Positions 4,816-58,980 of a DNA stretch of 64,000 nt are shown piece after piece. Source of the DNA: Gammaproteobacteria bacterium (GTDB taxonomy: Bacteria; Pseudomonadota; Gammaproteobacteria; Enterobacterales; Psychrobiaceae); assembly GCA_013214945.1 (NCBI GenBank), contig JABSRT010000018.1, positions 1 through 64,000 of the forward strand, written 5' to 3'. The position numbers and the translations under genes were made by a program. The notes under the pieces were generated by a model. It was not told where the DNA came from. It ran no database searches and worked only from the letters and a program-made list of their open reading frames with translations. Position 1 is the stretch's first letter. Each line of letters begins with the position of its first letter.

Positions 4816-4862
4816 TGACACCCAAGTATTGATTTTAATCTTTTAAATTAATGGGTGTCCCT
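4816..4862. repeat. REP-like hairpin, copy A
   Basis: The arms GACACCCA (4817-4824) and TGGGTGTC (4852-4859) are perfect inverted repeats around an AT-rich core (ATTGATTTTAAT...AAATTAAT). The same layout recurs at 19221, 20480 and 21403. It sits between convergent genes and could also act as a bidirectional terminator, since T-rich sequence follows. Confidence 0.8.
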
Positions 4863-19155: not shown

Positions 19156-19270
19156 TGTAGTAGTACAGTGAATTTGACCACCTAACAAGAGGTGATATAC
19201 ACAGAAAAGTAACAACTAAATGACACTCAAGATTGATTTTAATGATTTAAATTAATGAGTGTCCCTTATT
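19156..19270. repeat. 115-bp long repeat, copy 1
   Basis: Bases 19156-19270 match 21338-21452 in the same orientation with few differences: AGTACAGTGAA, a CACCTAAC...GAGGTG mini-hairpin, TATACACAGAAAAGTAACAA and then a REP-like hairpin. The copy ends inside the stop codon of the cupin gene. The pair brackets the cupin, LysE and secreted-protein genes. Confidence 0.88.
19221..19265. repeat. REP-like hairpin, copy B
   Basis: The arms GACACTCA (19222-19229) and TGAGTGTC (19255-19262) bracket an AT-rich core. It is the distal part of the 115-bp repeat and abuts the cupin gene stop codon. Confidence 0.82.
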
Positions 19271-19616
19271 CTGCCAATTTCAAGAAATCGCCATCAATTA
19301 TCAGTAGATGAACGCCTCCTTTGGTAATTGAACGATGAGAACTAAGATCATCAGAAACAATATATGACATGCCTTCACTCAAAGTGGATTGAGTACCGTC
19401 TTTGAATTCATTTATAACTTCACCCTTTAAGCAGTAAACTATGTGACCTTTTTCACACCAATGATCAGCTTTATAATTCTCAGAATATTCAACATATCTC
19501 ACACGTAAACCACCAAACTGCATTGTTTGCCAATAGGCAGTGCCAGTGATACCAAAATGCTCAGTTTTCGCGATACTTTGCCAGTCAATCGTCTGAAAAG
19601 GAATATTGCTACTCAT
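19266..19616 (-). CDS. DHCW-motif cupin-fold protein
   Basis: A 116-residue single-domain cupin. The centre has YKADHWCEKGHIVYCLKGE, a close relative of the DHCW signature that names this small family, followed by the second cupin strand pair (SLEGMSYIVSDD-like region). Such proteins are cytosolic; their function is not known, though the cupin fold often binds a metal or small ligand. AAGGTG lies 9 bp before the ATG. The LysE gene lies 30 bp upstream on the same strand, so the two may be cotranscribed. Confidence 0.72.
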   Translation of the reverse strand: MSSNIPFQTIDWQSIAKTEHFGITGTAYWQTMQFGGLRVRYVEYSENYKADHWCEKGHIVYCLKGEVINEFKDGTQSTLSEGMSYIVSDDLSSHRSITKGGVHLLIIDGDFLKLAE

Positions 19617-20279: not shown

Positions 20280-20854
20280 ATTTTAAGTAACCGTAACTTC
20301 TTATAGATCAGTAAATGTATATATGAAATATCACGATATCCAAGCTTATTAATTACAGGTTACCCTCTATGTCAGCAGCATTGAGCCTGAATTTCTAGCA
20401 TAAAAACAATAATTGAAATTATCTAACATTTCAATCGTTTCATTTGTCTACGGAGATACTTTTATTCGTAACAACTAAAGGACACTCATGAGATTGATTT
20501 TAATAATCTAAATTAATGGGTGTCCTTATTTACCCATTAACTCGCCGTATTGTCCTAATGCATTTATCATCAATCTTATTTCTTTATTTTAAGAATAAAA
20601 CCATATAGTTGAGCGTTTATTGCGCTATTAATTTGTAGGTGGTGAATTACGTTATGGAATAGATTTGGCGTGAAACGGCTACTCGTGCAAGGATAATAGT
20701 TACGTGACCAAAGTCACTGTGCCACTACAAAGTGGTGTATCCAATATTGGTGTAGTGTATTATCCCCGCCCCTATTTAGGCGGCTAGTCCCGCGATATAT
20801 ATTGCAATATTCTAAATAGAAACCGTAATACTGATTAATCTAAAAAGGTTCAAT
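20280..20854. other. Repeat- and hairpin-bearing intergenic stretch
   Basis: These 575 bp hold the REP-like hairpin C and a structured segment at 20723-20783: CACTAC/GTAGTG arms enclosing CCAATATTGG, then CCGCC...GGCGG. No ORF is supported. The last 60 bp should include the promoter of the secreted-protein gene. Confidence 0.55.
20480..20525. repeat. REP-like hairpin, copy C
   Basis: GGACACTCA and TGGGTGTCC bracket an AT-rich core (ATTGATTTTAATAATCTAAA), with one arm mismatch. AACAACTAAA lies just upstream, as in copies B and D, but the rest of the 115-bp repeat is absent here. Confidence 0.8.
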
Positions 20855-21337: not shown

Positions 21338-21452
21338 TGCAGTGGTACAGTGAACTTGGTCACCTAACTTGAGGTGATATACACAGAAAAGTAACAACTA
21401 AATGACACTCAAGATTGATTTTAATGATCTAAATTAATGAGTGTCCCTTATT
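21338..21452. repeat. 115-bp long repeat, copy 2
   Basis: Direct-orientation match to 19156-19270, about 2.2 kb away, with a handful of substitutions in the first 40 bp and one in the hairpin core. It separates the secreted-protein gene from the membrane-protein/HEPN pair. Confidence 0.88.
21403..21447. repeat. REP-like hairpin, copy D
   Basis: GACACTCA and TGAGTGTC arms with the same core as copy B (one base different). It lies between convergent genes and may help terminate both. Confidence 0.82.
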
Positions 21453-21473
21453 CACATGTTGATATTATATTTG

Positions 21474-55119: not shown

Positions 55120-56013
55120 ATGACATCCGTTAACTTTATGCGACTATTATTGCTTGCTGCATTGTGGGGCGGCTCGTTTTTATTAATGCGGGTGACGGCA
55201 GGTACTTTAGGCCCAACCATGCTTATTGGTGGCCGGGTTGGATTTGCTGCGTTATTTTTGCTGGCGATTGGCTTTTATTTAAAGCGCCAGCTGGTGTTTA
55301 GACGCCACTGGCAGCATTTTTTTATTATTGGATTTTTTAATTCCGCCTTGCCGTTTTTACTGTTTGCTTATGCCGCACAAACATTAACCGCGGCCACAAT
55401 GTCGGTGGTCAATGCAACAGCGCCTATTTGGGGCGCTATTATTGGCGCTATTTGGACTAAAACAGCCTTAAATCGTCAAACGGTAATTGGGCTGGGACTC
55501 GGCATCGCTGGTGTCAGTATTTTGGTCGGTTTGCAGGCTAATTTTGATTTAAGCGTTGCTATTATTCCTATTTCGGCTGCGACACTCGCAGCGGTAAGTT
55601 ACGGTATAGCGACCAATTACGCTAAATCTGCACCAGCGGTTAGTTCATTTGATAATGCCCATGGCAGCATGTGGGCTGCCACGCTGATAATTGTGCCACT
55701 GTTACCCTTTTTTCCAGCCACCGAGCCGGTCAGTTCATCAATAGTATTGGCGGTTATTGCGCTTGGCGTATTATGTACTGGCGTGGCGTATTTGTTGTAT
55801 TTTAAATTAATTGCCGACGTTGGCGCAGCACCGGCGTTGTCAGTAACATTTTTAGTGCCGGTATTTGGTATTTTATGGGGTTACTTATTTTTAGACGAGT
55901 CGGTTGGCTGGCATACGGTAGCCGGATCGGCGTTAGTTATCTGGGGCACGATGTTAGTCACTGGCTTTTCAGTGCAGACGTTTTTCAAAGAAAGGAAGGC
56001 GAGTTATGAATAG
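55120..56013 (+). CDS. EamA-family (DMT) permease
   Basis: A 297-residue inner-membrane protein with ten hydrophobic helices in two EamA repeats. The ATG at 55120 (MTSVNFMRLLLLAALWGGSF) has AGAGG 7 bp upstream, better than the in-frame ATG at 55036. LWGGSFLLMRVTAG and LLFAYAAQTLTAATMSVVNA are conserved first-repeat parts; YLFLDESVGWHTVAGSALVI closes the second. Substrate unknown. The Ada-like gene overlaps its end by 8 bp, so they form one unit. Confidence 0.87.
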   Translation: MTSVNFMRLLLLAALWGGSFLLMRVTAGTLGPTMLIGGRVGFAALFLLAIGFYLKRQLVFRRHWQHFFIIGFFNSALPFLLFAYAAQTLTAATMSVVNATAPIWGAIIGAIWTKTALNRQTVIGLGLGIAGVSILVGLQANFDLSVAIIPISAATLAAVSYGIATNYAKSAPAVSSFDNAHGSMWAATLIIVPLLPFFPATEPVSSSIVLAVIALGVLCTGVAYLLYFKLIADVGAAPALSVTFLVPVFGILWGYLFLDESVGWHTVAGSALVIWGTMLVTGFSVQTFFKERKASYE

Positions 56014-56956
56014 CAAAGTAACCGGATTAATCGATGATGAAAGCTCTGACGAAAGTACTAATAAAAGTACTATCAAAAGTGCTATCAAAAGCACTAATGA
56101 AAATACTAATGAAAATATAGCCCATCAGCATTATGAGGTGATAAGCCGAGCAATTGCCTATATCCGCGGACATGTTCAAGACCAGCCAAGTTTACAACAG
56201 ATTGCAGAGGCCGTTCATTTAAGTGAATTTCATTTACAGCGGGTATTTGCTAGTTGGGCTGGCATTTCACCGAAACGTTTTTTACAGTTTGTAACTAAAG
56301 AGCGGGCACTGGCTCAGCTGGCACAGTCGCAAGACTTACTTAATGTCGCGTTAGAGTCGGGGTTGTCAGGTACTGGTCGACTGCATGATTTACTGGTTAC
56401 CTGTGAAGCGATGACCCCAGGGCAAATAAAAACGCTCGGCAAAGACTTAACAATTTCGTATGGCCGGGCAATGACGCCCTTTGGCGCAGCTATTTTTGCG
56501 TGGACCGGGCGCGGGTTGTGTCATCTTGAATTTCTTGACCATGATAGCGAGCGCGATTATCAAATTGAGGTCGAGCAATTAAGATTGTCGTGGCCATACG
56601 CCTCGCTCAAAGCCGATGCTAAACAGGCGAACGAATTAGCCGCGACAATTTTTAATGCGCCGTTAACCCCTGGCAAAATCCATTTGGTGGTTAAAGGCAC
56701 TAATTTTCAACTTAAAGTGTGGCAAGCCTTGCTTAAAACCAGTGGCGATCAGTTAGTATCCTACGGTCAATTAGCCAATATGGCGGGATCACCTAAGGCC
56801 CAGCGGGCGGTTGGCAGTGCATTGGCAGCCAATAACATTGCTTTATTAATCCCTTGTCATCGGGTAATTCGCGGCAACGGTGAACTGGGTAATTATCGCT
56901 GGGGTGAAAATAGAAAACTGGCCATTCAGCTGTGGCAACACAGTAATGCCATTTAA
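56006..56956 (+). CDS. AraC-type HTH plus methylated-DNA-cysteine methyltransferase (Ada-like fusion)
   Basis: A 316-residue fusion. Residues 1-40 are a Ser/Thr/Asn/Lys linker built from a 4-residue repeat. An AraC-type helix-turn-helix follows (about 45-145; PSLQQIAEAVHLSEFHLQRV), then a connector and the MGMT domain (about 225-316). The acceptor Cys is in ALLIPCHRVIRGNGELGNYR. The Ada N-terminal zinc domain for phosphotriester repair is absent, as in many bacterial Ada-like proteins. It should remove O6-alkylguanine damage and may regulate genes. It overlaps the EamA gene by 8 bp. Confidence 0.9.
   Translation: MNSKVTGLIDDESSDESTNKSTIKSAIKSTNENTNENIAHQHYEVISRAIAYIRGHVQDQPSLQQIAEAVHLSEFHLQRVFASWAGISPKRFLQFVTKERALAQLAQSQDLLNVALESGLSGTGRLHDLLVTCEAMTPGQIKTLGKDLTISYGRAMTPFGAAIFAWTGRGLCHLEFLDHDSERDYQIEVEQLRLSWPYASLKADAKQANELAATIFNAPLTPGKIHLVVKGTNFQLKVWQALLKTSGDQLVSYGQLANMAGSPKAQRAVGSALAANNIALLIPCHRVIRGNGELGNYRWGENRKLAIQLWQHSNAI
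56039..56122 (+). repeat. In-frame 12-bp minisatellite in the Ada-like gene
   Basis: Seven consecutive 12-bp units related to AAAAGTACTAAT (GAAAGCTCTGAC, GAAAGTACTAAT, AAAAGTACTATC, AAAAGTGCTATC, AAAAGCACTAAT, GAAAATACTAAT, GAAAATATAGCC) encode ESSD-ESTN-KSTI-KSAI-KSTN-ENTN-ENIA. Copy changes stay in frame because 12 is a multiple of three. Confidence 0.92.
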
Positions 56957-56970
56957 GAAGTATTTAATAA

Positions 56971-58280
56971 GGGACAGCCATAACTAAATCGTTGATATAA
57001 AGCATTGGCTAAGCTTATAGGTATGACTATTGAAGTATCAAAAATACTCATCTCAGATGTGAGCTAACGATATATTCACTAAATTTTCAGAGTTGGCTTC
57101 ATTTATTAACACCCGATTGAATTTTGGACAAAGCGGTGCCGGAGATAACTATTACCTATTTGGTATTATGATTATTAATCGATTAACAGGGGTGCTTACA
57201 CCAACTCTTACCGTGACTATGGGCAAAGTCGCGTAAATGTTCATTCGTGCCAGCAAAGCTGCCATATTGCCGCCTAAAATGTTTAACAGCTGTTAGCCAG
57301 TCATCTTCAGCAATACCTAGTGTTGTTAGTATTTTGGGCTCATCTGAATCAATATAGCTGGTTTTGTTAGGGTCTACATGACGGCCACTCCAATCAACCA
57401 ATTCAAAATAATCGCTATAGCTAAATGGAATAACTTTTGTATTATTAGTACCAGCGAATGGCAGCAGGGTCTTTGGTTGCTCGGCTACAGAGGTATCCGG
57501 ATTGGTAGTGGCGTCTTGTTTCTGATGGGATTTATATTGGACAATACGTTTTTGAATCGAGGTGAAATTACTTTCAGATACGTTGGATGCTACGCCTGCT
57601 CGAATAGGATTTAAATCAACATAAGCCATACAGCTAAGCAGAGCTATATCATCAAGTAACGCCTGAGATTTAAAACGGCCTTCCCAAAAACGCCCGGTAC
57701 ATTTATCTTCTTTATTTGCTTGTCGCGCAATATGTTCATTCAAACATTTCATGTACCAAGATATGTCGTAAAGCCTTGCCCGCCATAGCTCAACGAGTTT
57801 TTCTACCGCGATAAAATGAGCAGGGCTTATTGTATCTTCGGTTAGGTACTGGTCGACTAATAAATGGCCATTAAACAAACGGTACCAACGCTCGATAACT
57901 TCATCCATTGACCAGATATCTGCTGCCACCTTATCGACGTGAAGTACCAGATGATAATGATTGCTCATCACCGCATAAGCGGCAATGTTAACTGAAAAAA
58001 CATCAGACAAAGTGGTGAATCTATCGACTAGCCACTGTCTGCGGTGGTCAAAGTTTTTACCGCTAACGTCATCATCACCACACAAATAACTGCGTCGAAC
58101 ACAACGGTTGATAACGTGATAAAAACTGGTTGCGGTTAAATCAATTTGAGAATGTCTTGCGCGGGTCATGTTTCACCTCAGCTAGTCGACTGTAACACCG
58201 AGAGTATAGGACACGGATGGTGTAAACTCTCACAAATTAGCTAGGTTACTGTAAAATCAATAATATAGTTATGGGTGTCC
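56971..58280 (-). mobile_element. REP-associated Y1 transposase unit with terminal inverted repeats
   Basis: The left end (56971-56986, GGGACAGCCATAACTA) and right end (58265-58280, TAGTTATGGGTGTCCC) are inverted copies with 15 of 16 matches; the similarity runs on to about 26 bp (22 matches). Between them lies one Y1 transposase gene. The unit sits between the Ada-like gene (stop at 56956) and the methyltransferase gene. The ends share the core GGGACAC(C/T)CAT with the four hairpins listed elsewhere. Boundaries are inferred from the repeats. Confidence 0.7.
57183..58169 (-). CDS. REP-associated tyrosine transposase (Y1/IS200-like, RAYT)
   Basis: A 328-residue HUH single-strand nuclease of the RAYT group. 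The start TRARHSQIDLTATSFYHVIN and RCVRRSYLCG, the HUH motif in AYAVMSNHYHLVLHV (about residue 75) and AYVDLNPIRAGV, the conserved helix with the tyrosine, are all intact. The gene appears full length with no frameshift, so it may be active. RAYTs act on palindromic REP sequences; hairpins with matching arm sequences occur elsewhere in this window. Confidence 0.87.
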   Translation of the reverse strand: MTRARHSQIDLTATSFYHVINRCVRRSYLCGDDDVSGKNFDHRRQWLVDRFTTLSDVFSVNIAAYAVMSNHYHLVLHVDKVAADIWSMDEVIERWYRLFNGHLLVDQYLTEDTISPAHFIAVEKLVELWRARLYDISWYMKCLNEHIARQANKEDKCTGRFWEGRFKSQALLDDIALLSCMAYVDLNPIRAGVASNVSESNFTSIQKRIVQYKSHQKQDATTNPDTSVAEQPKTLLPFAGTNNTKVIPFSYSDYFELVDWSGRHVDPNKTSYIDSDEPKILTTLGIAEDDWLTAVKHFRRQYGSFAGTNEHLRDFAHSHGKSWCKHPC

Positions 58281-58347
58281 CAAGTTAAGGTCCCATGTTA
58301 ATGTTATTCTACTGCTTGATGGTAATTAATAAGTTAAAGGATACATA

Positions 58348-58980
58348 ATGGACGTAGATTTTTGGCACCAAAAGTGGAGACTTAACCAAATAGCTTTTCA
58401 TATGCACAAAGCTAATCCGATGTTGGTGCAGTATTTTAGTCGGCTAAATTTGGTGGCTGGTAATCGAGTATTTGTGCCATTGTGTGGCAAAACACTCGAT
58501 ATTGGTTGGTTGTTGGCTCAAGGTTACCAAGTAGTCGGGGCCGAATTAAGCCAAAGTGCCATTGAACAGTTATTTGTTGATCTGGATGTTACTCCAACAA
58601 TTACTGCTGTTGGTGAACTCAAACGTTATAGCGGCACTAACATCGATATTTTTGTGGGTAATATCTTTGCATTGACCGCTGATATTTTAGGGCGGGTTGA
58701 TGCGGTTTATGATCGCGCCGCGCTGGTGGCATTGCCAAAAGAAATGCGTAATAACTACGTTAGTCAAATCCTTGAAATTACCAAGACCGCGCCGCAATTG
58801 TTGCTAACTTTTGAGTATGATCAATCTTTGCTGAGCGGTCCGCCATTTTCATTATCAAAAAATGAAGTAGCTCAGCAATATCAAGCATCTTATACCTTGT
58901 CAGAACTGGTTTCGTTTAATATCGCTGGTGGTTTAAAGGGTAAATGTCCAGCGCTGGAAACGGTCTGGTTGCTGCAATAG
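58348..58980 (+). CDS. tpm: Thiopurine S-methyltransferase
   Basis: A 210-residue SAM-dependent methyltransferase. MDVDFWHQKWRLNQIAFHMH is the typical start; RVFVPLCGKTLDIGWLLAQG is the SAM motif I variant of the TPMT family, then VVGAELSQSAIEQLF and DAVYDRAALVALPKEMRNNY. Bacterial Tpm acts on thiol, selenium or tellurium compounds in the cytosol. AAAGGA lies 7 bp before the ATG. Single-gene unit just right of the transposase. Confidence 0.92.
   Translation: MDVDFWHQKWRLNQIAFHMHKANPMLVQYFSRLNLVAGNRVFVPLCGKTLDIGWLLAQGYQVVGAELSQSAIEQLFVDLDVTPTITAVGELKRYSGTNIDIFVGNIFALTADILGRVDAVYDRAALVALPKEMRNNYVSQILEITKTAPQLLLTFEYDQSLLSGPPFSLSKNEVAQQYQASYTLSELVSFNIAGGLKGKCPALETVWLLQ

Follow-up and report, generated by a model that had tools for sequence, protein, structure and literature searches.

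A Y1 HUH transposase gene with conserved inverted ends and a local family of hairpins in a marine gammaproteobacterium

The unit and its transposase

We analyzed the first 64,000 nucleotides of contig JABSRT010000018.1 from a gammaproteobacterium of the family Psychrobiaceae (assembly GCA_013214945.1), hereafter the window, and focused on a gene for a Y1 HUH transposase and the inverted repeats enclosing it. The segment 56971–58281 is very probably one copy of a small autonomous mobile element, about 1.3 kb long and resembling an insertion sequence; the hosts of the element family are marine bacteria. Its gene (57183–58169, minus strand), recognized from the open frame, sequence motifs and predicted fold, encodes a protein of 328 amino acids (aa) similar to those of TnpAREP subclass 2.3. 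Comparison of the repeats places the left one, which lies downstream of the gene and represents the right end of the element (RE), at 56971–56986 on the plus strand (GGGACAGCCATAACTA), and the right one, upstream of the gene and representing the left end (LE), at 58266–58281 on the minus strand (GGGACACCCATAACTA, read inward). The distances to the gene are thus 212 nt from the stop codon to the RE and ~110 nt from the LE to the start codon. They are identical at 15 of 16 positions and their likeness reaches to ~26 nt (ATTGAT/GTTGAT), whereas the 350-bp flanks, shuffled 12 times, gave best matches of 12–13 of 16. A previous reading of the sequence alone had described repeats of this length and similarity and limited the unit to 56971–58280; the left limit stands and the right one moves one base further. 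The neighboring genes, both on the plus strand, encode an AraC-type helix-turn-helix/methyltransferase protein (56006–56956) and tpm (58348–58980), and a search of the window against Rfam gave no match.

The protein contains both motifs of class 2 Y1 HUH TnpAREP enzymes, the HuH motif as HYH at residues 71–73 and the Y---NP motif within YVDLNP, with Y183 as the candidate catalytic tyrosine followed by N187 and P188. In an alignment of 55 sequences, H71, H73, Y183, N187, P188 and Y254 were invariant. The NCBIfam model REP_Tyr_transpos matched all 55 (E up to 0.001), with the window protein under the cut-off of the model, and Pfam Y1_Tnp matched 53 of the 55 relatives (E up to 0.1), the window protein weakly; a sequence search of PDB with the single window protein found no match. 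The predicted structure (predicted local distance difference test 87) has its best fold match in the REP-associated transposase 4er8 (Z 13.0, 156 residues, root-mean-square deviation 2.8), followed by IS608 and then ISDra2. Subclass 2.3 has been described by a median length of about 325 aa, a long C-terminal tail and two insertions in the core (Quentin 2018, PMC6006769). In our model, residues 200–328 form a tail beyond the core, strand 16–22 is followed by helix 43–57 at the first insertion (b1-aA), and the helices at 80–132 separate strand 71–78 from the next core helix, 136–154, at the second (b3-aC). The window protein is a TnpAREP by motif and predicted fold, and of subclass 2.3 by modeled anatomy, the two insertions being judged from the model and not with the profile of the subclass authors.

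Conserved ends and probable movement of the unit

The element was present in 47 of the 119 genomes searched. About 10 long or full copies were found in the 4.7-Mb source genome, with aa identities of 56–89%, and one chromosome, that of genome G100, holds three copies with 99.8% DNA identity. We surveyed the ends of 178 copies from the source genome, its relatives and named gammaproteobacteria, using the inward-facing pattern [GAT]GACA[CG]NCA. Inverted ends with the core GGACASNCA, at fixed distances from the gene, are conserved in most of these copies, the cores being mostly located 60–130 nt before the start and 160–260 nt after the stop codon. On the expected strand, we counted 180 cores upstream and 159 downstream of the gene, whereas the opposite strand had 13 and 11, respectively; these totals are pattern counts, and an LE core was found in 126 and an RE core in 104 copies, not always both in the same one. 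Single ends fold no better than their shuffles and have no stable hairpin of their own.

To study mobility, we paired copies with at least 85% DNA identity and compared their flanks, those cited here being 85–98% identical. In one sort of pair, the similarity extends beyond the LE core by 0–9 nt and beyond the RE core by 0–8 nt, and the flanks are unrelated. Examples include L127/L132 (92% identity, similarity limits 0 and +6 nt from the cores), L213/L221 (92%, -7 and +8), L177/L179 (91%, -5 and +5), L090/L091 (91%, -9 and +7), L003/L004 (90%, -1 and +2) and L211/L212 (98%, -1 at LE and stopping just beyond the RE motif); L079/L080 and L205/L216, among others, also break at both ends. Pairs with 100% identity (e.g., L071/L173) represent the same locus twice and are uninformative on movement. 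As similar copies at unrelated sites share the unit only, with the similarity breaking at both ends, these comparisons make it very likely that a discrete unit bounded by the inverted ends moves. A further case is the icd–ilvI interval, which contains the element in two P. shioyasakiensis strains and none in the syntenic site of Pseudoalteromonas CF6-2.

Several observations weigh against this conclusion. Other pairs lose their similarity well within one end, as in diverged or truncated copies, and the right ends of the three G100 copies are not all intact, one being 33 nt and another 6 nt short. The CF6-2 junction is blurred and its flanks are too diverged for base-level placement, which makes that empty site approximate, and an exact empty site was found for no copy examined. 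Relatives with an empty site at 56970/58281 (58282 with the corrected limit) had been envisaged from the sequence alone; none was found among nine genus relatives, where no alignment extended across the junction, and in a similar search of Aeromonas no match crossed a junction. Separately, the left flank of the copy L104 (G054) has matches at many positions of other Aeromonas genomes and perhaps belongs to a repeated cassette region.

Hairpins, end fragments and solo ends

The window contains four hairpins with arms GACAC(C/T)CA and TG(A/G)GTGTC and a core with ATTGATTTTA. The first (4817–4859), identified by pattern search and folding, has inverted short ends and an AT-rich core; the others are at 19222–19263, 20481–20524 and 21404–21445. 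All had been noted in the sequence-only reading, and in single-strand folding every one of them outperforms all 200 of its shuffled versions (z -3.5 to -4.6). Scanning the 4.7-Mb genome with a strict hairpin pattern gave these four sites and no other, and the reversed control pattern gave none; a DNA search with the second hairpin and its flank returned the same four along with copies of an IS3-like neighbor. The family consists of four copies confined to 16.6 kb of one contig; of the earlier expectation that such hairpins extend beyond the window, what holds is that relatives carry similar hairpins of other sequence, while this family is absent elsewhere in its own genome.

The hairpins are most likely short LE/RE derivatives, REPIN- or MITE-like (miniature inverted-repeat transposable element), of related elements of the superfamily, as judged by the sequences of their arms. 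The fit to transposase ends is closer for the right arms than for shuffled sequences (p 0.0005–0.0055). When compared with 340 ends, three of them have their best match in the same genome, the second and fourth hairpin in the RE of paralogue C26 (copy L007) and the third in the RE of paralogue C9 (copy L006); for the first hairpin, the right arm is closest to an end from another organism. Across the 119 genomes, paired-end hairpins are more frequent than matches to the reversed control pattern where the gene is present (53 vs. 24), but not where it is missing (33 vs. 47; Fisher p 0.0004). These counts are sums of per-genome tables, and genomes G110, G022, G039 and G000 supply most of the excess. 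On the opposite side, the left arms match ends weakly (p 0.016–0.06 vs. shuffles), all four having their best matches in other organisms and with low scores, and no hairpin was seen to move.

The weak left arms would also fit a different origin, the hairpins being terminators at gene ends or belonging to some other mobile element (the IS3-like remnant in the 116-bp repeats), with a convergent likeness to the transposase ends. Consistent with this, three of the four lie just downstream of gene stops, and two lie within 116-bp repeats that start with an IS3-like tip: the copy at 19156–19271 (plus strand) contains the second hairpin and the one at 21338–21453 (plus strand, 93% identical) the fourth. 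We nevertheless consider this explanation unlikely, as it leaves aside the advantage of the right arms over shuffles, the three best matches to same-genome ends among 340 and the restriction of the hairpin excess to genomes with the gene. The 116-bp repeats end at the right edge of the hairpin, and their IS3-like part is found at five further places in the genome.

Still less probable is that the window copy of the transposase itself made and moved the four hairpins. The two are on the same contig, 35–52 kb apart, and ATTGATTTTA and GACACCCA are common to the hairpins and the right end of the unit, but the right arms of the second, third and fourth hairpin are closest to ends of other copies in the same genome. 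Because three right arms best match C26 and C9 ends, parentage by this transposase is not supported, and the parents were probably of the C26/C9 type. The sequence-only view of the hairpins as small nonautonomous relatives mobilized by this enzyme is therefore supported as to the superfamily ends in their arms and not as to the parent.

End sequences also occur as fragments. More than one core in the same orientation was found at an end in 61 of the 178 copies (about a third), and in the examples read, the end repeats start several nucleotides outside the core and stop at a variable inner point. Genomes G024 and G048 have fragments of both sides, some cut by contig ends. At L109 (G100:C1:3349914-3359001), a stretch of 10.5 kb holds the three 99.8% identical copies, two of them in tandem, and also seven short fragments anchored at the LE. 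In two Aeromonas species, the right flanks indicate that L107 (G073) and L282 (G140) are the same insertion, and their tandem end duplications differ.

Solo ends were counted in G110 and G039, with the copies masked: 20-kb segments holding a copy (among L361–L365 and L386–L391) contain 3–23 solo cores and those elsewhere 0–6 (Mann–Whitney p 7e-6), in comparison with 1–5 and 0–5 for the control pattern. The two genomes were picked since their hairpins had looked clustered, a selection of which the test is not independent; the near segments are also lower in GC, and some solo cores are repeats inside possibly one gene (L387). Local hopping with distance decay was rejected, the density of solo ends being flat from 0.35 to 13 kb, and solo ends did not significantly resemble the local copy most (p 0.07). 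The clustering may reflect local movement or accumulation in islands. In the source genome, solo ends of the type of the window unit are found at G000:C3:83538, C13:51540 and C7:194233, the last ~0.9 kb from a full copy.

For the movement of the unit, we propose that the enzyme would use Tyr183 to nick a single strand at the outer boundary of each end and that the excised strand would be transferred to a new place, by analogy with IS200/IS605 and TnpAREP enzymes; the short inverted GGACASNCA repeats would then be the ends used. Alternatively, the gene could be a RAYT that has been domesticated or is passively transferred: it would have no movement of its own, its copies would spread by gene transfer or homologous recombination, and the repeats would be binding or regulatory sites. 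This would suit the 56–64% identity of about half of the long copies in the source genome to the window protein, but is the least probable alternative given that similar pairs share the unit alone, with breaks on both sides at or at most ~10 nt outside the inverted cores, and that copies within one genome are 99.8% identical.

Relation to known systems

The survey of these enzymes left two questions, the DNA substrate of subclass 2.3 and the self-movement of class 2 genes: for subclass 2.3, it reported no identifiable flanking REP-like structures and little similarity between copies in one genome, and for class 2 as a whole, it noted that formal evidence of autonomous mobility was lacking (Quentin 2018, PMC6006769). 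The conserved inverted ends are a concrete candidate for the substrate, and the unit boundaries in similar copies are evidence of movement. The end-anchored fragments suggest how transposon ends might turn into REP-like repeats. More tentatively, subclass 2.3 might form a separate group of autonomous single-strand elements that are bounded by terminal inverted repeats (TIRs) and shed end fragments, as tandem one-end-anchored pieces and regional solo ends. If true, the subclass would stand, as an intermediate still in existence, between IS200-type elements and RAYT/REP systems and would illustrate the origin of REP-like repeats.

The window element resembles TnpAREP subclass 2.3 in length (328 aa), hosts, copy number and anatomy, and differs in the conserved inverted ends that enclose the genes and in the 99.8% DNA identity of some copies within G100, beside the 56–89% aa identity in the source genome. 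In TIRYTs or TIRtrons, a RAYT-like gene is flanked by long inverted repeats, and the repeat families occur as single units, dimers or clusters (Di Nocera 2013, PMC3733652). The 26 published TIRYT examples were assigned to subclasses 2.1, 2.2 and 2.5, and not to 2.3 (Quentin 2018, PMC6006769). The arrangement found here, a gene for a Y1 HUH enzyme bounded by TIRs, is of the published TIRYT/TIRtron kind. The published motif is GGGGWSAS and the core here GGACASNCA: the repeats contain GGGACAC or GGGACAG, with three Gs and not four, and some relatives have GGGGACAC. With IS200/IS605 elements (IS608, ISDra2), the unit shares the Y1 HUH fold, but those have subterminal hairpins and no TIRs, whereas this unit ends in inverted repeats that form no stable hairpin of their own; by its ends, the element does not belong to IS200/IS605. 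That inverted ends are atypical for IS200-like elements and that the family needed a definition had been seen from the sequence alone, and the definition is now subclass 2.3/TIRYT-like, with ends conserved across gammaproteobacteria. Finally, the short inverted end pairs, as candidate nonautonomous derivatives, resemble REPINs and REPs with their RAYTs, but those number hundreds across a genome, in contrast to the four copies in one region here.
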